64,000 nt of DNA, from positions 9,052,001-9,116,000 of the forward strand of contig NZ_CP108488.1 of assembly GCF_035987325.1 (NCBI RefSeq), read 5' to 3'. Shown here piece by piece: positions 55,784 to 63,593 of this stretch; the stretch's first letter is position 1, and every line of letters starts with the position of its first letter. The notes under the pieces were generated by a model. It saw only the letters and a list, made by a program, of their open reading frames with translations, was not told the DNA's origin and made no database searches. The position numbers were made by a program, and so were the translations under genes. Origin of the DNA: Streptomyces sp. NBC_01244 (GTDB lineage: Bacteria; Actinomycetota; Actinomycetes; Streptomycetales; Streptomycetaceae).

Positions 55784-56806
55784 TCAGGAATTGGTGGTGG
55801 GCAGCCCGGGCGGGTTGACCCGGGAGGTGGTCACGGCCTCGTCGGAGAGGTGCCAGGCGGTGAGGAGCTGCGCGTACCGGCCGCTCCCGGCGAGGTGGTT
55901 GACGGCCTGCGCCACGGGCTCGGCCAGTCCGCTGTTCTTCTTCACGGTCGCGGCGATCAGCCCCTGGAGGGTCTCGCCGGCGCCGGAGAACGAACCGGCC
56001 TTGCGGGTCGGGGCGTTGCCGCTCGCGGTCTGGGTGATGTGGTAGGCGATCGACGGGTTCGGGCCGAAGTTGAGGTCGATCTTCTTGCCGCTCAGGGCCA
56101 GGTAGACGCTGTTCGCGTCAGGGAAGTACTTGACCGTGATGTCCTTGCCCTCGGACTGGAGCTTCTTCTGCCACTCCAGGAGGATCTTCTCCTGGTTGGT
56201 GCCCTTGCTGACCGACACCGTCCTGCCCGCCAGGTTGCGGTAGTCGCCGCCGAACTCCCAGGTGTTCTCCTTCAGGGCCTCGAAGGCCAGGTTGTCCTGC
56301 CGGTAGGACGCGAAGTCGTACTTCTTCTTGCGCTCCTCGGTGACCGTGACGTTGGAGAAGGCCACGTCGACCCTGCCGCTGTCGATGCCGACGAAGAGGT
56401 TCTCCCAAGTGGAGTTCTTCACCACGGGCTTCAGACCCAGGGTCGCGGCGACGAGGCGGCCGAGGTCGGGCTCCGCTCCGGTGATGGTCTTCTGGTCGGT
56501 GCCGACGTAGGCGAGGGGCGGGAAGCCGGCCGGCAGGGCACCGACCCCGATGACCAGTTCACCGCTGTCGCGCACGGCCTTCGGGAGCTGTGCGCGCAGG
56601 GACTCGACGACGGGGACGGACAGCTCGGCCTGCTGCGCGGCCCCGTTGGAGACGGCGCCGATGGTCACCTTGTCGGAGCCCGGTGTGGTGCCGGTGGCCT
56701 TCGCGTCGCCGCCGCACGCGGTGAGTCCGGCGGCGAGGGCGAGGGCGGCGGTCGTGGCGCCGAGGCCGCGGACGAGTCTGTTGCGCAGGAGGGGCGGGTG
56801 TTGCAT
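55784..56806 (-). CDS. Amino-acid-type ABC transporter substrate-binding lipoprotein
   Basis: This 340-residue lipoprotein has a lipobox LTACGG after a hydrophobic signal, and a type 3 periplasmic-binding fold: LVIGVGALPAGFPPLAYVG, DLGRLVAATLG, VDVAFSNVTVTEERKKKYDF, YFPDANSVYLALSGKKID. It binds a small amino-acid- or thiol-like ligand outside the membrane. AAAGG precedes ATG 56806. Cotranscription with the ATPase and permease upstream gives a complete importer. Confidence 0.88.
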   Translation of the reverse strand: MQHPPLLRNRLVRGLGATTAALALAAGLTACGGDAKATGTTPGSDKVTIGAVSNGAAQQAELSVPVVESLRAQLPKAVRDSGELVIGVGALPAGFPPLAYVGTDQKTITGAEPDLGRLVAATLGLKPVVKNSTWENLFVGIDSGRVDVAFSNVTVTEERKKKYDFASYRQDNLAFEALKENTWEFGGDYRNLAGRTVSVSKGTNQEKILLEWQKKLQSEGKDITVKYFPDANSVYLALSGKKIDLNFGPNPSIAYHITQTASGNAPTRKAGSFSGAGETLQGLIAATVKKNSGLAEPVAQAVNHLAGSGRYAQLLTAWHLSDEAVTTSRVNPPGLPTTNS

Positions 56807-56828
56807 GGCGTTGCCTTTCGGGTGTTCG

Positions 56829-56927
56829 GCGATGCGGGGAAGGCCGATGCGGGGAGGGTGAGGCACGGAAAGCCATGGCAGGGAAAGCCGTGGCAGGGAA
56901 AGTCGTGGGAAGGGAAGCCGAGGAGGG
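56829..56927 (+). repeat. 15-bp tandem repeats between SBP and ATPase genes
   Basis: A first pair CGGCGATGCGGGGAA / GGCCGATGCGGGGAG (56829-56857) is followed by an array GAAAGCCATGGCAGG (56868-56882), GAAAGCCGTGGCAGG (56883-56897), GAAAGTCGTGGGAAG (56898-56912) and a partial fourth. They fill the gap upstream of the substrate-binding protein start. Confidence 0.88.
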
Positions 56928-56953
56928 GCCGAGGCAGGGGCGAGGTGGGGAGG

Positions 56954-57754
56954 TCAGAGCACCTTGCTGAGGAACTCCCGGGTCCGCGGGTGCGCGGGGT
57001 GGTCCAGCACCTGCGCGGGCGGGCCCTGCTCCACGATGCGGCCCTCGTGGAGGAAGACGATCTCGTCGGCGACCTCGCGGGCGAAGCCGATCTCGTGGGT
57101 CACGATCACGAGGGTGGTGCCCCCGGTGGCCAGGTCCTTGATCACGGAGAGCACCTCGCCGACCAGCTCGGGGTCGAGCGCCGAAGTGGGTTCGTCGAAG
57201 AGGATGACCCCCGGCCGCAGGGCCAGGGCCCGCGCGATGGCCACCCGCTGCTGCTGCCCGCCGGAGAGCTGTCGCGGGTAGGCGCCGCCACGGTCCCCGA
57301 GCCCCACGCGGCGCAGCAACTCCTGCGCCAGGGCCTGTGCCTGCGGCCGGGACAGCCGGCCGGTGGCCACCGGGGCCGCGGCCACGTTGTCCCGTACGGT
57401 CAGGTGCGGGAAGAGGTTGAAGTTCTGGAAGACGAAGCCGATCCGGCCGCGCTGGGCGAGGATCGCCCGTTCCCGCAGCTCCTTGAGCCGGCCCCCGTGC
57501 CGCTGGACGCCTATCAGCTCGCCGCCGACGCTGACGTGGCCGGCCTCGGGCTTCTCCAGATGGTTCAGGACCCGCAGCAGGGTCGACTTGCCGGATCCGG
57601 AGCGTCCCAGGATCACGGTGACGGTGCCGGGCGCGACGGTCAGGCTCACCCCGTCGAGGACCCGCCGGCCGCCGAACCACTTGTGCACGTCGTGCACCTC
57701 GATGGCGGCCGGCCGCGAGGTCGTGGCGGCGGCGGTACTCGCGGTCCCGGTCAT
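56954..57754 (-). CDS. Amino-acid-type ABC importer ATPase (GlnQ/TcyN-like)
   Basis: This 266-residue ATPase has Walker A GRSGSGKST, QNFNLFPHLTV Q-loop, signature LSGGQQQRVAIARAL, Walker B VILFDEPTSALDP and the GlnQ-type H-loop VTHEIGFAREVAD. It is 60% or so similar by eye to the ATPase at 62778, including the GELIGVQRHGG insert, suggesting paralogues. ATGA overlap with the upstream permease. Confidence 0.93.
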   Translation of the reverse strand: MTGTASTAAATTSRPAAIEVHDVHKWFGGRRVLDGVSLTVAPGTVTVILGRSGSGKSTLLRVLNHLEKPEAGHVSVGGELIGVQRHGGRLKELRERAILAQRGRIGFVFQNFNLFPHLTVRDNVAAAPVATGRLSRPQAQALAQELLRRVGLGDRGGAYPRQLSGGQQQRVAIARALALRPGVILFDEPTSALDPELVGEVLSVIKDLATGGTTLVIVTHEIGFAREVADEIVFLHEGRIVEQGPPAQVLDHPAHPRTREFLSKVL

Positions 57755-58728
57755 CGGGCCGTCTCCTTCCGGTAGCGGATCCGCAGGTCGCGCAGGCCGG
57801 CCCGGGCCCGCTGGAGCGGAGTCGGCGCGGGGGTGCGCAGGGCTCCGCGGGCGTAGTGCCGTTCGACGTAGTACTGCACGACGGAGACCAGGCTGGTGAG
57901 GATCACGTACCAGACGGTCGCCACCAGCAGCAGCGGCACCACGTCGCCGGGATAGGTACTGCCCAGGCTCTGTACCGAGCCGAACAGGTCGAGCAGCGAG
58001 ACGTAGAAGACCAGTGAGGTGGCCTTCAGTAGGCCGATCAGCTGGTTGACGTACGAGGGCACGATCGAGCGGAGCGCCTGCGGGAAGACGATCCTGGCGA
58101 ACTGGTACCGCTTGGGCAGTCCGAGGGCCGCGGCCGCCTCGTGCTGCCCCTGGTCGACGGAGAGCACGCCGGCCCGGACGATCTCGGCGGCGTACGCGGC
58201 CTCGCTCAGGCTCAGTCCGACCACCGCGACCACCATGTCGGTGGCGGGCCGCGACTCGTCGAAGGTCAGGAAGGCGGGCCCGAAGGGCACACCGATGCTG
58301 AGGGTCGGGTACAGGGCGCTGAGGTTGTAGAGGAAGAGCAGGACGACGATCAGCGGCACGGAGCGCAGCAGCCAGATGTAGGTCCAGCTCACGGACCGCA
58401 GCACCGGGCTGCCCGAGAGCCGTCCGAGGGCCAGCAGGACGCCGCCGGCCAGACCGAGGACCGCGCTGTACGCGGCCACCTGGAGGGTGATGAGCAGCCC
58501 GTCCAGGATCACCGGGCGGGCGAACCAGTACGCGAAGCGGTCCCATTGGTAGAAGGGATTGGTGATCAGCCCGTGGGCGGCCTGCGACACCAGCACGAGG
58601 ACGACGATGCCGGCGACCCACCGGCCGGGCCGGCGCAGCGGGAGGACCCGCTCGGCCGGACCGGGCGGCCCGGGCGGCCCGGAGGGGCCGGCGGGCGCGG
58701 AGAGGAGCAGTGATTCGGTCAAGGACAC
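57751..58728 (-). CDS. Amino-acid-type ABC importer permease
   Basis: This 325-residue permease of the HisM/TcyL type has five to six helices and the EAA loop ...EAAAALGLPKRYQFARIVFPQALRSIVPSYVNQ (in parts EAAAALGLP and IVFPQALRSIVP). A Pro/Gly N-terminal extension (about 1-30) precedes TM1. It starts at GTG 58728 downstream of the promoter at 58814-58843 and overlaps the ATPase gene. Confidence 0.9.
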   Translation of the reverse strand: MSLTESLLLSAPAGPSGPPGPPGPAERVLPLRRPGRWVAGIVVLVLVSQAAHGLITNPFYQWDRFAYWFARPVILDGLLITLQVAAYSAVLGLAGGVLLALGRLSGSPVLRSVSWTYIWLLRSVPLIVVLLFLYNLSALYPTLSIGVPFGPAFLTFDESRPATDMVVAVVGLSLSEAAYAAEIVRAGVLSVDQGQHEAAAALGLPKRYQFARIVFPQALRSIVPSYVNQLIGLLKATSLVFYVSLLDLFGSVQSLGSTYPGDVVPLLLVATVWYVILTSLVSVVQYYVERHYARGALRTPAPTPLQRARAGLRDLRIRYRKETAR

Positions 58729-58922: not shown

Positions 58923-59900
58923 TCAGTGTTCGCCCGGTGCGGTCACCGAGTTCAGGCGGCCCCGCAGGCCGGCCACCCGGACGCGCAGCAGCCGCAGCGG
59001 CGTGGGCGGAAGGCCGCGCGAGCTGCCGCGCGCGTAGTGCCGCTCCACGTAGTACTGGCCCGCGCTGAGCACGGTGGTGACGGCGACGTACCAGAGGGTG
59101 GCCACCATCAGCAGCGGGATGACCTGGTAGTTCTGGTTGTAGACCAACTGCACCGAATACAGCAGGTCGTGCACGGCCAGCACGCTGACGATGCTGGTGC
59201 CCTTGAGGGTGCCGATCAGCATGTTCCCGGCGGTCGGCACGATCGAGCGCATCGCCTGGGGAACCACGATCCGGTAGAGCGTGCGGCGCCTGCTCAGCCC
59301 GAGCGCCTGCGCGGCCTCGGTCTGGCCGGGGTCCACGGAGAGGATGCCGCCGCGCACCACCTCGGCTGCGTACGCGGTCTCGTGCAGGGTCAGGCCGATG
59401 ACGGCGGTGAGGGTCGGGCCGAGCAGGTTCACCGTGGTGACGCTGAAGAGCTGGGGGCCGTAGGGGATGCCCAGGCCGAGCGTCGGGTACAGGGCGCCGA
59501 TGTTGAACCAGAACAGCAACTGTACGAGGAGCGGCGTGGACCGGAAGATCCATACGTAGCCCCAGCTCAGAGTGCGCAGGACGGGGTTGGCCGACAGCCG
59601 CATCACGGCGAGCACGGTGCCGAACAGAAACCCGAGCACCATCACCACGCCGGTCAGCCAGAGGGTCAGCAGCAGCCCGTCGAGCACGGCGGAGGTGGTG
59701 AAGTACCGGCCCACCAGGCTCCATTGGAAGGCGTCGTTGCGGACGACGGAGGCCAGCACCATCGCGAAGACCAGCAGCGCGGCGGCGGCGGACAATCGAC
59801 GGCCGACGCGTCTGCGGGGCACGATCGGCGGCGGCTCGGTATCGGGGGCGGATACGGGGGACGCGTGGGGCCCGCGAGGCGCGTCGGAAACGGTGGTCAT
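58923..59900 (-). CDS. Amino-acid-type ABC importer permease 2
   Basis: This 325-residue permease is paralogous to the one at 57751, with the EAA loop TEAAQALGLSRRRTLYRIVVPQAMRSIVPT in parts (EAAQALGLSR, IVVPQAMRSIVPT) and the same C-terminus pattern (YYVERHYARG). It could serve the second importer, whose solute-binding protein and ATPase are in the divergent operon (61789-63593) without their own permease. The ATG at 59900 follows a CGGAG. It has its own promoter at 60074-60104. Confidence 0.88.
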   Translation of the reverse strand: MTTVSDAPRGPHASPVSAPDTEPPPIVPRRRVGRRLSAAAALLVFAMVLASVVRNDAFQWSLVGRYFTTSAVLDGLLLTLWLTGVVMVLGFLFGTVLAVMRLSANPVLRTLSWGYVWIFRSTPLLVQLLFWFNIGALYPTLGLGIPYGPQLFSVTTVNLLGPTLTAVIGLTLHETAYAAEVVRGGILSVDPGQTEAAQALGLSRRRTLYRIVVPQAMRSIVPTAGNMLIGTLKGTSIVSVLAVHDLLYSVQLVYNQNYQVIPLLMVATLWYVAVTTVLSAGQYYVERHYARGSSRGLPPTPLRLLRVRVAGLRGRLNSVTAPGEH

Positions 59901-59954
59901 GGAAGTGCTCCGGAGGGTGGAGGGATGGCGGGCGCGGCAGGGGCTGCCGGACAC

Positions 59955-59988
59955 GGGCACGGGTGCGGGTTTCGGGCACGGGTGCGGG
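59955..59988 (+). repeat. 15-bp direct repeat in divergent leader
   Basis: GGGCACGGGTGCGGG at 59955-59969 and 59974-59988, with related GGGCACGGGT just after, in the untranslated leader of permease 2. Confidence 0.8.
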
Positions 59989-60073
59989 CACGGGTACGGT
60001 CGTCGTCACGCTCGCCGTGTCCCTCAACACGGCCGGACCGGCCTGCGCGCGAGGCGGAGCCGGAACGCCGCCG

Positions 60074-60104
60074 ATCGTATGCGTGCACCGCACGAACGTG
60101 TCAA
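60074..60104 (-). promoter_or_regulatory. Promoter of permease 2
   Basis: Minus strand TTGACA (60099-60104), 19-bp spacer, TACGAT (60074-60079). The spacer is slightly long. About 174 bp upstream of the permease start. Confidence 0.55.
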
Positions 60105-60191
60105 CAGTGCGCGGTTCAGCGGACGGTCGGGCCCGTCCGGCATCCGGTCCGTCGCTTGACGAAGAGCGCTTCGTACTGTTCAAGTAGTCGC

Positions 60192-60269
60192 ATGAACGCC
60201 CATCAGCGCCTGGTCTCGCGCGACTACATCGACTTCGGTCGGGTGTGGTCCGCGGCCTGTTGCGCCTGA
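60192..60269 (+). CDS. 25-residue cysteine leader peptide
   Basis: A short reading frame from ATG 60192 to TGA 60267-60269. It starts MNAHQRLVSRDYIDFGR and ends VWSAACCA, so two adjacent Cys codons (TGT TGC) come just before the stop. The LVSR-x-x-IDF-x-RV-x-SA-x-C pattern matches the small leader peptides found before sulfur-assimilation genes in Streptomyces and other actinomycetes. It lies 353 bp before the LLM gene and probably senses Cys-tRNA supply by ribosome stalling. A weak promoter TTGACG (60156) N18 TCAAGT (60180) would place the start near the ATG, so it may be leaderless. Confidence 0.78.
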   Translation: MNAHQRLVSRDYIDFGRVWSAACCA

Positions 60270-60622
60270 CGCGGCAGCGGGCTGTCTGACCGGCCCTTCC
60301 CTCCCTCGGTGACCCCGTCGCGGGCCGAGAACTCCCTTCGCGCAACCGTCCTGCGGGCCGTCACGGCCGCCGGGTACGGGCTGTCGCGAACCCGGACGCG
60401 CGCTGCCGCCGCACCCACCTCCCCTGCCATGCGTCGTCACGCCCGCCCCGTCGCGCACCGCTGCCCGCCCCGCTGCCCGGCCGCCCCCGCCCCGCGTCGT
60501 CCGCACCGCCACTCCGTTCCGTCCGGAGTCTGCAGGGCTGACGGCTCATCACGCATCCCTGTCCCGCGGGTGGTTCACCCTGCCCGGCCGCGATCCGCCG
60601 CACCTTCCGAAAGGCCACACCC
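60270..60622 (+). promoter_or_regulatory. Probable attenuator leader, C-rich and G-poor
   Basis: 353 bp with no gene between the leader peptide and the LLM gene. Positions 60421-60520 contain 59 C and 24 G by my count, the C>G bubble expected of a Rho-loading region. A GGCCG-TCA-CGGCC hairpin lies near 60356-60368. No U-tract terminator is seen. Confidence 0.55.
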
Positions 60623-61792
60623 ATGCCCGTGGAGTTCCTCGGCATAGCCGCCACCAACGACGGCTCCGAAACCACCGCACGATCCGGCGCCGCCTTCGAC
60701 AAGGAGTACACGCTCAGGCTGGCCAGGGCGCACGAGGACCACGGCTGGGACCGGGTGCTGTTCGCCTACGGTTCCGGCTCCCCGGACCCGGCGCCGGCCG
60801 CCGCGTACATCGCGAGCAAGCTGGAACGGCTGCAGATCCTGCTGGCCCACCGGCCCAACGTCTCGTACCCCACCTTCGCCGCCAAGACCTTCGCGACCCT
60901 CGACCAGATCAGCGGCGGTCGCCTGGCCGTCCACTTCATCACCGGGGGCAACGACCACGAGCAGGGACGCGAAGGCGATGTCCTCGGAAAGGACGAGCGC
61001 TACGCCCGCACCCGCGAGTACATCCGCATCGTCAAGAAGATCTGGACCACCCACGAGCCCTTCGACCACGAAGGCGATCACTACCGCTTCCACGACTTCG
61101 TCAGCGACGTCTTCCCCGTCCAGCAGCCCCGACCGAAGGTCTCCTTCGGCGGTTCCTCACCCGCCGCCTACGCGGCCGGCGGAGCGGAGGCGGACTTCTA
61201 CTGCCTGTGGGGTGAACCCCTGGAGCAGACGGCCCAGCAGATCGAGGCCGTACGGGCAGCGGCGCGGGCCGCGGGCCGTACCGAAGCGCCCCGCATCCAG
61301 GTCGCGTTCCGCCCGATCATCGCCCCGACCGAGGAGCTGGCCTGGGAGAAGGCCCACCGCACGGTGGGCGCCATCCGCGAGCGCAGGCGGGCGGGGACCG
61401 TGCAGCGCCACCGCAACGGAGTCTCCGAGGCCGCGGCCCCGCAGAACACCGGATCGCAGCGCCTGATCGCCATCGCCGAGGCGGGGGAGCGCTACGACCG
61501 GGCGCTGTGGACCCCGACCGCGGCCGCCACCGGGGGCGCGGGCAATTCCAACGCCCTGGTCGGCACCCCGGAGACGGTGGCCCAGGCGCTGCTGGACTAC
61601 CACGACCTCGGCGTGGACATCCTGTCGGCCAGGGGCTACGACCTGCTGGGCGACGCAGTCGACTTCGGCCGGTACGTGATCCCGCTCGTCCGCGAGGAAG
61701 TGGCCAAGCGTGACGCCGCTCGGGACGCCGAACACGGCGCCCGCCCCGAGGCCGGCTTCCCCCACCAGACCCTGACGGCGGTGCGCGGATGA
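60623..61792 (+). CDS. SsuD-like LLM flavin-dependent (alkanesulfonate) monooxygenase
   Basis: This 389-residue enzyme has EFLGIAATNDGSET, HEDHGWDRVLFAYGSGS, GGRLAVHFITGGNDHEQGREGDVL (parts ISGGRLAVHFITGG and DHEQGREGD) and VSFGGSSPAAY, matching the SsuD/alkanesulfonate-monooxygenase branch of LLM proteins. It would use FMNH2 and O2 to release sulfite from an organosulfonate. No NAD(P)H:FMN reductase is adjacent. It is first in the rightward operon after the cysteine leader, and overlaps the substrate-binding protein gene (ATGA). Confidence 0.88.
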   Translation: MPVEFLGIAATNDGSETTARSGAAFDKEYTLRLARAHEDHGWDRVLFAYGSGSPDPAPAAAYIASKLERLQILLAHRPNVSYPTFAAKTFATLDQISGGRLAVHFITGGNDHEQGREGDVLGKDERYARTREYIRIVKKIWTTHEPFDHEGDHYRFHDFVSDVFPVQQPRPKVSFGGSSPAAYAAGGAEADFYCLWGEPLEQTAQQIEAVRAAARAAGRTEAPRIQVAFRPIIAPTEELAWEKAHRTVGAIRERRRAGTVQRHRNGVSEAAAPQNTGSQRLIAIAEAGERYDRALWTPTAAATGGAGNSNALVGTPETVAQALLDYHDLGVDILSARGYDLLGDAVDFGRYVIPLVREEVAKRDAARDAEHGARPEAGFPHQTLTAVRG

Positions 61793-62781
61793 GACTCCTC
61801 GCGAACGGGCCCCGGTCCGGGACCGGGAAGGGTGCCGGGCGCCGCGGACGCCTGCGCACCGGGCTCGTACTCCTGCCCCTCCCCCTGCTGGCCTCCCTGA
61901 CGGCCTGCGGCTCCGGTGACGGATCCGCGCCGTCGGCCGCCGCCCTCGTCTCTCCCGCGCCGGCCGACGATCCGGTCGCCGCCGTCCGCGCGGTCGAGCC
62001 GATCGCCGCCCTGCTCCCCGCAGAGGTACGCAAGGCGGGCAGCCTGCGGCTCGGCGGCTCCGTCGGATCCCCTCCGTCGGCGTACTACCCGAACGGACAG
62101 GACAAGCCGCCCGCGGGCCAGGACATCGACATCGCAGCCGCGGTGGCCAAGGTCCTCGGCGTGAAGCTGGAGCGGCAGGACGCCTCCTTCGAGACGATCC
62201 TCCCCGCCCTGGGCAGCGGCAAGTACGACGTCGGTACGGGCAACTTCGGGGTGACCACCGAACGCCTGAAGTCCGTGGACTTCGTCACGTACATCAACGA
62301 CGGCCAGGGCTTCGCGGTCCGGACGGGAAACACCGCGCTGACCGGCCAGGTCTCCGACCTCACCCGGCTGTGCGGGCTGACCATCGGCACCGGCGCCGGT
62401 ACGACGTTCGAGAAGACCCTGACCGCGCAGAAGGAGGTCTGCGCGGCCGCCGGGAAGAAGCCGTACGAGGTCAAGGTCTTCTCCGAGACCGGGGCCGTGA
62501 CGACGGCCCTCCAGCAGGGCCGGATCGACGTCGTCATGTCGACGATCAACGGGCTGCGCCACCAGGCCGCGCAGCCCGCCGCGCACACCACCTTCCTCGG
62601 CGAGTACCACCGCCTCGACGTCGGCTTCGCCTTCAAGAAGGGCTCCGCGCTGACCCCCGCGTTCCAGGCCGCCGTCAACGAGCTGATCAAGGACGGCACC
62701 TACGCGCGGATCCTGAAGAAATGGGGCACCACCCCCTCCGCGATCGACACCTCGCAGATCAATCCGGCCGAGCACACGTGA
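61789..62781 (+). CDS. ABC transporter substrate-binding lipoprotein 2
   Basis: This 330-residue lipoprotein has a signal LLPLPLLASLTAC (lipobox LTAC), then a type 3 solute-binding fold: GSVGSPPSAYYPNGQ, DIDIAAAVAKVLGVKLE, GKYDVGTGNFGVTTERLKSVDFV (parts) and GRIDVVMSTINGL. It is probably specific for a sulfur-containing amino acid or sulfonate, given the leader peptide and SsuD-like partner. Start overlaps the upstream gene (ATGA), stop overlaps the ATPase start (GTGA). Confidence 0.88.
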   Translation: MRLLANGPRSGTGKGAGRRGRLRTGLVLLPLPLLASLTACGSGDGSAPSAAALVSPAPADDPVAAVRAVEPIAALLPAEVRKAGSLRLGGSVGSPPSAYYPNGQDKPPAGQDIDIAAAVAKVLGVKLERQDASFETILPALGSGKYDVGTGNFGVTTERLKSVDFVTYINDGQGFAVRTGNTALTGQVSDLTRLCGLTIGTGAGTTFEKTLTAQKEVCAAAGKKPYEVKVFSETGAVTTALQQGRIDVVMSTINGLRHQAAQPAAHTTFLGEYHRLDVGFAFKKGSALTPAFQAAVNELIKDGTYARILKKWGTTPSAIDTSQINPAEHT

Positions 62782-63593
62782 GGAACCAAGAACGCGACCA
62801 CGACCGTGACCACGAACGCGACCGTGACCACGAACGCGTCATGGTGGAGGTCCGGGGCGTCCACAAGAGCTTCGGCCCCCTGGAGGTGCTGCGCGGGGTC
62901 GACCTGAAGGTCCGGGCGGGGGAGGTCACCGTGATCCTCGGTCCTTCCGGTTCGGGGAAGTCCACCCTCCTGCGCACCATCAACCACCTGGAGAAGGTCG
63001 ACCGCGGCTGGGTCAGCGTCGACGGCGAGCTCATCGGCTACCGCGGCCACCGCGGCAAGCTGCACGAACTCAAGGAGAAGGAGGTGCTGAAGCAGCGGAC
63101 CCACATCGGGTTCGTCTTCCAGGACTTCAACCTCTTCACGCACCTCACCGTGCTGGAGAACCTCGTCGAGGCTCCCGTCTCCGCGCTGCGCCGGTCCCGG
63201 GAGGAGGCCGGGGCGACGGCCCGCCGGCTGCTGGAACGCGTGGGTCTGAGCGAGAAGGCGGACGCCTACCCACGGCAGCTGTCCGGCGGGCAGCAGCAGC
63301 GGGTCGCCATCGCCCGCGCGCTCGCGCTCGAGCCCAAGGTGCTGCTCTTCGACGAGCCGACCTCGGCGCTCGACCCGGAACTGGTCGGCGAGGTCCTGGA
63401 CGTCATCAAGGACCTGGCGCGGACCGGAACCACCATGCTCGTCGTCACCCACGAGCTCGGCTTCGCCCGGGAGGTCGCCGACACCGTCGTCTTCATGGAC
63501 GGCGGGGCCGTCGTGGAGCAGGGAGCGCCCGGGGCGCTCCTGGACGACCCGCAGCACCCCCGCACGCGCGCCTTCCTCGCCAAGATGTGGTGA
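62778..63593 (+). CDS. Amino-acid-type ABC importer ATPase 2
   Basis: This 271-residue ATPase has Walker A GPSGSGKST, the Q-loop FQDFNLFTHLTV, signature LSGGQQQRVAIARALAL, Walker B VLLFDEPTSALDP and VTHELGFAREVAD. GTG 62778 overlaps the upstream stop; ATG 62841 is an alternative but has no RBS. The ~20 residues between them are a charged DRDHERDRDHER repeat made by a short DNA repeat (62791-62838). No permease follows, so it may pair with the one at 58923. Confidence 0.9.
   Translation: MRNQERDHDRDHERDRDHERVMVEVRGVHKSFGPLEVLRGVDLKVRAGEVTVILGPSGSGKSTLLRTINHLEKVDRGWVSVDGELIGYRGHRGKLHELKEKEVLKQRTHIGFVFQDFNLFTHLTVLENLVEAPVSALRRSREEAGATARRLLERVGLSEKADAYPRQLSGGQQQRVAIARALALEPKVLLFDEPTSALDPELVGEVLDVIKDLARTGTTMLVVTHELGFAREVADTVVFMDGGAVVEQGAPGALLDDPQHPRTRAFLAKMW

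Follow-up and report, generated by a model that had tools for sequence, protein, structure and literature searches.

The nearest studied relatives of the leader that we discuss here are the mycobacterial polycysteine leaderless short ORFs of the Ms4527A family (NF042936). Our leader lies in a 64,000-nucleotide stretch of DNA from Streptomyces sp. NBC_01244, the whole of which is referred to as the window. It resembles the Ms4527A family in having a short ORF at the predicted 5' end, a HID/HVD..R..S core and a Cys near the stop, and five Ms4527A matches above the cut-off (L109-L113) likewise have UGU at position Arg+6. It differs in having two Cys residues of which one is conserved, with no tract of consecutive Cys codons, in scoring 17.7 bits (E 0.0019) against a cut-off of 45, in having a conserved RNA element of its own, and in giving no sign of Shine-Dalgarno sequestration. 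The NF042934 'cis_reg_atten' peptides have the same type of motif and occur in the same genome (12 other places, 11 of them above the cut-off of 27 bits), but our peptide is not among the matches, either at E up to 1 or at its place in the genome search, and most of the NF042934 peptides that were read have L (HxDL) where ours has F. The peptide is a diverged relative of the actinobacterial Cys leader peptides of NF042934 and NF042936, lying under both cut-offs. A class-wide search with NF042936 gave matches in 73 of 148 genomes, above the cut-off in 5.

Other Cys leaders are known from further afield. Those described in the accessible part of Seliverstov 2005 (PMC1262725) precede cys operons in Mycobacterium and P. 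acnes, and cbs in B. longum. They are like ours in having no classical terminator and a pyrimidine-rich downstream region, but they have runs of Cys codons and belong to other operons, and the Cys cases in that part of the paper do not include any from Streptomyces. The uORFC-8-2 motif found before cysS in Rhodobacterales also combines a uORF containing Cys codons with an attenuator-like RNA, but, as far as the available sections of PMC8632094 go, it belongs to another phylum, its tandem Cys codons are mostly UGC, and it ends in a U-run terminator. Neither NF042934 nor Ms4527A brought up a paper in full-text searches, and broader searches, including one of the arrest-peptide literature, gave no title that names a cysteine leader of Streptomyces, in a body of literature with few subscription articles or preprints. 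In the available part of a list of eight leader peptides of S. lividans none is assigned to cysteine.

It is quite likely, and well supported by comparison of related loci, that the locus in the window is a cysteine-responsive, ribosome-mediated attenuator, in which the position of the ribosome gates an RNA segment, R1, and termination in the leader. The peptide and the RNA segment behind it very probably switch an organosulfur operon on when cysteine is short. The peptide, its UGU codon, the promoter spacing, the element and the fixed distance of the element from the stop codon are conserved. The stalling, the pairing switch, the direction of control and the premature end of transcription would run as follows. 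Transcription would begin at the peptide's own AUG, and with plentiful cysteine the ribosome would reach the stop codon and cover R1, and transcription would mostly end in the leader. If cysteinyl-tRNA is short the ribosome would halt at the single UGU and leave R1 open to pairing, either with GCCGAG in the element or, further on, with a downstream segment, box B, and more polymerases would then get as far as the genes for the monooxygenase and the transporter. The conserved residues ahead of the Cys probably do their work in the exit tunnel, which would make one UGU enough. The premature end could be intrinsic at a hairpin that we call T, or due to Rho acting on a C-rich stretch, or both. In trp-type attenuators also the position of the ribosome picks between alternative pairings, as we infer here, but they differ from our leader, which has one fixed sensing codon, a conserved peptide body and no U-run terminator in the window.

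The leader peptide gene, MNAHQRLVSRDYIDFGRVWSAACCA plus the stop codon, is on the forward strand at 60192..60269, with ATG at 60192, TGA at 60267-60269 and 353 nt between the TGA and the monooxygenase ATG at 60623. It is the 25-codon frame, with ACCA just before the stop, that was described in the original prediction. The predicted promoter (60156..60184, forward strand) has a -35 box TTGACG at 60156-60161, a 17-nt spacer and a -10 box TTCAAG at 60179-60184 that ends 7 nt ahead of the peptide ATG. A generic sigma-70 scan of 59900-60700 found no promoter. Of 79 orthologues 74 have TTGAC at -36, counted from the start codon, and the consensus is TTGACG-N17-CTCAAT-N7-ATG. This spacing fits a predicted leaderless transcript starting at the peptide's own AUG; such transcripts are common in Streptomyces, and make up 17% of the total in S. 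lividans (from the accessible part of PMC8079986).

The peptide accompanies the monooxygenase gene in nearly all of its closer orthologues. With the monooxygenase as query there were strong matches in 54 of 199 genomes of the genus, and among the best 30 loci, which were examined, the peptide was ahead of the gene in 29. The one without it, L012, is rearranged upstream; where the leader would be, it has coding sequence, by eye that of a sugar permease, and either the leader was truly lost or the contig was wrongly joined in assembly. In a second scan, overlapping the first, the best 80 of 235 loci were taken, all Streptomyces by title, and the peptide precedes the orthologous gene in 79 of them, the 80th (L181) having just 112 nt of upstream sequence. 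The peptide is 25 aa long in 75 of the 79, and the distance from its stop to the gene ranges from 152 to 453 nt across the orthologous loci. A further 20 weaker matches comprised 8 orthologues at 79-82% identity, all with the peptide, and 12 relatives at 54-67% identity (L077-L088), none of which has a leader by the pattern used. A DNA search over the family gave matches in 66 of 101 genomes, many covering the peptide alone. Conservation of the peptide had been named as the check that could undo the idea of a Cys leader, and with 79 of 80 and 29 of 30 orthologous loci, in overlapping sets, the idea survives; from its sequence the conserved peptide is very probably a Cys sensor.

With regard to the Cys codons, the first Cys is present in 79/79 orthologues and by our own count the second in 60/79. 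The stalling at Cys-Cys that had been proposed is therefore not supported, as the first Cys (UGU at 60258..60260, forward strand, Arg+6) alone is invariant, and we take that to be the predicted sensing codon. UGU is found at Arg+6 in 79/79 orthologues, in 8/8 relatives in the same genome (L001-L008), in 28 of 29 leaders found class-wide and in 19/19 leaders of other loci. This amounts to 134 of 135 leaders, or 115 of 116 when the last 19, which come from L089-L108 and were found by a DNA query that may bias the codon, are left aside. The invariance of the residue is partly imposed, since only leaders with a Cys at Arg+6 fit the pattern used for counting, and searches with the profiles tend to pick out sequences that have the core residues, but the choice of UGU over UGC is not imposed by either, except in the L089-L108 leaders. 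Elsewhere in the same peptides Cys is encoded by UGC 94 times and by UGU 23 times, and the structural genes of the orthologous loci have 277 UGC and 16 UGU.

Synonymous codons vary at the conserved Arg, Asp and His over 56 diverse leaders, with Arg in 4 codons, and in the same set the conserved Ser is AGC in 23, TCC in 16 and TCG in 5. Such codon variety is not imposed by the profiles or the pattern, and it speaks for the peptide itself being under selection. A single tRNA normally reads both UGU and UGC, and to find the wobble codon fixed thus suggests that it tunes the speed of decoding, with a constraint at nucleotide level as a possible alternative.

Directly after the stop codon is a conserved RNA element of about 60 nt (60270..60329, forward strand), the best-conserved part of the leader behind the peptide, ahead of the C-rich stretch on which the original prediction had dwelt. 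It includes R1, CGGCAGCG, a conserved 5' segment at 60272-60279, hairpin P2 (60279-60284 / 60291-60296), a pyrimidine tract (60294-60306) and the predicted hairpin T (60305-60309 and 60314-60317 / 60321-60329), all on the forward strand. The 3' part has two alternatives, being able to form hairpin T or to pair with the 5' end of the element (P1). In the 79 orthologues mean column identity is 0.88 over nt 1-10 after the stop, 0.87 over nt 11-30 and 0.77 over nt 31-60, and for the same intervals in 19 leaders of nitrite/sulfite-reductase genes it is 0.62, 0.54 and 0.53. R1 begins 2 nt past the stop in 72 of the 79. The 9-mers CGGCAGCGG, CCTCCCTCG and CGGGCCGAG, from the start, middle and end of the element, are present in 66, 58 and 53 of the 79 respectively. 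Of 102 unique leaders, 62 conform to a pattern drawn up for the complete element; roughly two in three orthologues keep the element in full. It is absent from all eight of the orthologues with 79-82% identity (L069-L076), which keep the peptide and its UGU, and from some closer ones (L038, L176 and L201). The second Cys is present in L069, L070, L071 and L074 and absent from the other four of that group.

A hairpin of five pairs at the P2 position is found in 97 of 102 unique leaders as against 35 of 99 control windows, and there is one compensated variant, GAGCC/GGCTC. An alignment of 43 element sequences had no two-sided compensatory change; it consists of the window and 42 of 65 references, and loci without a recognisable R1, hence the more divergent leaders, are left out of it. 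The stems thus rest on identity and complementarity. The folding energy of the element is no more stable than that of shuffles (z +0.86 in the window and -1.16 to +0.49 in five other stretches). None of 4227 Rfam models reached its gathering score over the window, and none matched at E up to 5 over 60100-60700. The element gives a single strong match in its own genome (E 5.8e-21) and, under stricter filters, one copy in each of the 19 genomes of 121 that have it, and we rejected the idea of a repeated regulon module on these grounds.

The pairing partner proposed for R1 outside the element is box B, CGCTGCCG (60401..60408, forward strand), which was identified by complementarity and has a conserved context. 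A full complement of R1, with G-U allowed, is present downstream in 85 of 114 leaders as against 218 of 2276 shuffles, a count that is partly circular, box B having been chosen by each locus's own R1, and from which 5 leaders without a recognised R1 were dropped. When box B was chosen by context instead, double changes were seen in L055, where the case is clear, and in L052, where it is weaker. With so few double changes at R1:B we claim complementarity, and do not regard covariation as proven.

Ribosome footprints were modelled with lengths from E. coli toeprints. With that footprint a ribosome with UGU in the A site would reach to about the stop codon, and one with the stop codon in the A site would cover R1. 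The fold statistics are limited to loci with recognisable parts, which number 43, 51 or 50 depending on the construct. For the peptide plus element in 51 orthologues, hairpin T came out at 0.69 with no ribosome, and at 0.91 with the first 9 nt after the stop masked, when it exceeded 0.5 in 50 of them. If masking went to the stop only, the values were 0.54 for P1 and 0.37 for T, with P1 above 0.5 in 27 and T in 19, and with 12 nt after the stop masked another hairpin took over at 0.81 and T fell to 0.14. The outcome thus depends on the footprint assumed, as T is lost when 12 nt instead of 9 are masked. In the case of R1:B, the values in 43 loci were 0.94 with the ribosome stalled, 0 with it at the stop and 0.31 for naked RNA; longer constructs gave 0.65, 0 and 0.44 in 50 leaders, and 0.22, 0 and 0.56 for the window. 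In the window leader P1 is interrupted by a mismatch, and T is predicted whether the ribosome is stalled or at the stop. The geometry in these models fits gating by the ribosome; folding does not define the exact switch, and predicts no clean one in the window.

No GC hairpin with a U-run was found in 59900-60700. The tail after hairpin T (AACTCCCTTC, 60330..60339, forward strand) is T/C-rich in the orthologues and weak in the window. In the 53 of 79 orthologues with a recognisable element end, it has a mean of 3.4 T per 8 nt as against 1.3 in the rest of the leaders, and 51% of the tails have at least 4 T per 8 nt as against 2.8% in the rest. Further downstream is a C-rich, G-poor stretch (60421..60520, forward strand), a possible Rho loading region, for which the earlier count of 59 C and 24 G is exact. 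An excess of C over G of at least 35 occurs in 0.04% of 100-nt windows (64 kb, both strands, step 10). The maximum excess per 100 nt is at least 18 in 79/79 orthologous leaders (median 27, with 18 as the 95th percentile of the background). Among stretches of equal length from the same loci a median of 5% reach as high, and the figure is below 5% in only 36 of the 79 loci. A C-rich, G-poor leader is a tendency common to the orthologues, and on composition alone it is moderately unusual for its length. A further box in the spacer, CGTCGTCACGCC, is at 60432-60443, and CGTCGTCAC is found in 38/79 orthologous leaders.

It could be argued that Rho alone suffices, loading on the C-rich leader once the ribosome of the peptide leaves and being hindered by a ribosome stalled at the Cys codons, with the element shaping access for Rho. 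The excess of C in every orthologous leader is in keeping with this, as are the 152-453 nt available between stop and gene, the pyrimidine tract within the element and the lack of a U-run terminator in the window, and the eight diverged orthologues all manage without the element. Rho was also proposed for the mycobacterial Cys leaders in the accessible part of Seliverstov 2005 (PMC1262725), where the suggestion was called weak. However this explanation does not account for the conserved element, for the constant spacing between it and the stop, or for the T enrichment of the tail, base composition is by itself a weak sign, with the matched-length median at 5%, and it is not obvious how a ribosome stalled upstream would shield a region about 150 nt downstream. 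We think it rather unlikely. Of the Rho attenuator in the original prediction, the C-rich, G-poor leader is supported, and Rho as the main actor is so far not, the best-conserved RNA being at 60270-60329, with the T/C-rich tail after it in 53 orthologues.

Control of translation, with pairing that hides the monooxygenase Shine-Dalgarno (GAAAGG, 60609..60614, forward strand) unless a ribosome stalls, is in our view improbable. It has a precedent in the mycobacterial polycysteine short ORFs, where Canestrari 2020 is said to have found the Shine-Dalgarno sequestered, and in the available parts of the citing papers these relatives are said to control how the downstream genes are translated. The 9-mer of the Shine-Dalgarno region, GAAAGGCCA, occurs in 37/79 orthologous leaders. 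The first 110 nt do pair better with the Shine-Dalgarno region (-17.4 kcal/mol) than the middle of the leader does (-15.5 kcal/mol, for segments that differ in length), but mononucleotide shuffles give -17.5 kcal/mol over the 79 loci and the spacer is long and mostly unconserved. Sequestration by the element was rejected, the computed duplex energies being equal to those of shuffles in the 79 loci. That the element is a site on the DNA to which a repressor or activator binds, with the peptide as a separate feature, is very unlikely: it would account for conservation at the nucleotide level combined with ordinary folding energy, but not for an element locked 2 nt behind the stop in 72/79, for a P2-type stem in 97/102 with its compensated GAGCC/GGCTC variant, or for R1 complements downstream far above the shuffles. 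The ribosome-gated attenuator remains our preferred reading.

The operon behind the leader begins with a monooxygenase of the FMN-dependent luciferase family (60623..61792, forward strand; PF00296, E 8.3e-68). The likeness to SsuD in the original prediction holds, but the score falls far short of the SsuD cut-off, with 203.2 bits against 510 for NF001939 and 201.8 against 518.2 for TIGR03565. The solved structures nearest to it by sequence are of alkanesulfonate monooxygenases, with 7jv3, named as such an enzyme, in first place (E 9.2e-44), and the protein belongs to the SsuD/SfnG branch, under the cut-offs of both families. The next genes on the same strand are for a substrate-binding lipoprotein of type SBP_bac_3 (61789..62781; PF00497, E 2.8e-28) and an ABC ATPase of polar-amino-acid type (62841..63593, with an alternative GTG start possible at 62778; TcyN NF008428, 317.7 bits, cut-off 406). 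Sulfonate uptake had been proposed for the importer. This is not supported, as the binding protein, which matches SBP_bac_3 and models of amino-acid type, and the TcyN-like ATPase belong to the polar-amino-acid (cystine-like) family and not to SsuABC.

A divergent permease of the same transporter class (58923..59900, reverse strand; PF00528, searched as 58926-59897) is matched in 57 of 80 orthologous loci, a count to be read with its likeness to a second permease in mind, and gene order varies among these loci. Beyond it, also divergent from the leader operon, are a second binding protein of polar-amino-acid class, an ABC ATPase and a permease (55787-58728, reverse strand). The two sets together look like a duplicated transporter. 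In another genome (G013) this leader, complete with its element, lies ahead of an SsuE-type FMN reductase (222.9 bits, cut-off 164.05), which supports FMN-dependent use of organosulfur compounds. Leaders of this type are also found ahead of binding-protein genes with no monooxygenase between, in L053 (by tblastn) and in L096 and L106 (by eye), so that the leader travels with the transporter too. We read the operon as one for organosulfur salvage rather than proven sulfonate uptake.

The leader is not alone in its genome. A profile including this peptide gave 14 matches there, itself among them; 11 leaders could be read, and L237, L238 and L240 gave no readable leader. L235 was not counted as a relative as it has no Cys at the position, nor was L239, in which the codon is UGC, the motif is imperfect and the gene that follows is for an unrelated response regulator. 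The eight relatives in the genome for which the genes were checked, a set that differs from L001-L008 of the codon count in having L236 in place of L004, precede sulfur-type genes. These include, above curated cut-offs, an SsuA-family binding protein (twice) and cysteine synthase, and, below cut-offs, a nitrite/sulfite reductase, an SsuC-like permease, a sulfatase, an NtaA/DmoA-type monooxygenase and a symporter of the dicarboxylate family, which also includes cystine symporters. In the case of the nitrite/sulfite reductase, the leader DNA (own genome, G000:C1:7498937-7499172) has matches in 41/41 genomes of the genus, and in the 19 leaders that could be read among 20 fetched (L241-L260) the peptide is nearly identical while the RNA after the stop is not conserved. 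Thus the peptide and the output parts seem to evolve separately.

This leads to a wider suggestion, which we make tentatively and regard as possible rather than probable: that the LVxRxH(I/V)D(L/F)xRVxS body keeps the ribosome in such a state that one wobble-read UGU, fixed at Arg+6, is enough to sense cysteinyl-tRNA, and so forms an actinobacterial cysteine sensor, assisted by the nascent peptide and used by many sulfur operons per genome, with an operon-specific part after the stop, here a ribosome-gated RNA element absent from Rfam. Cys leader peptides have so far been studied as poly-Cys stretches. A near-invariant single UGU, where the structural genes prefer UGC, together with a conserved body would be a sensor tuned at the level of both the codon and the nascent chain. 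If this is true, many sulfur operons of one genome would be linked to cysteine without a regulator protein.
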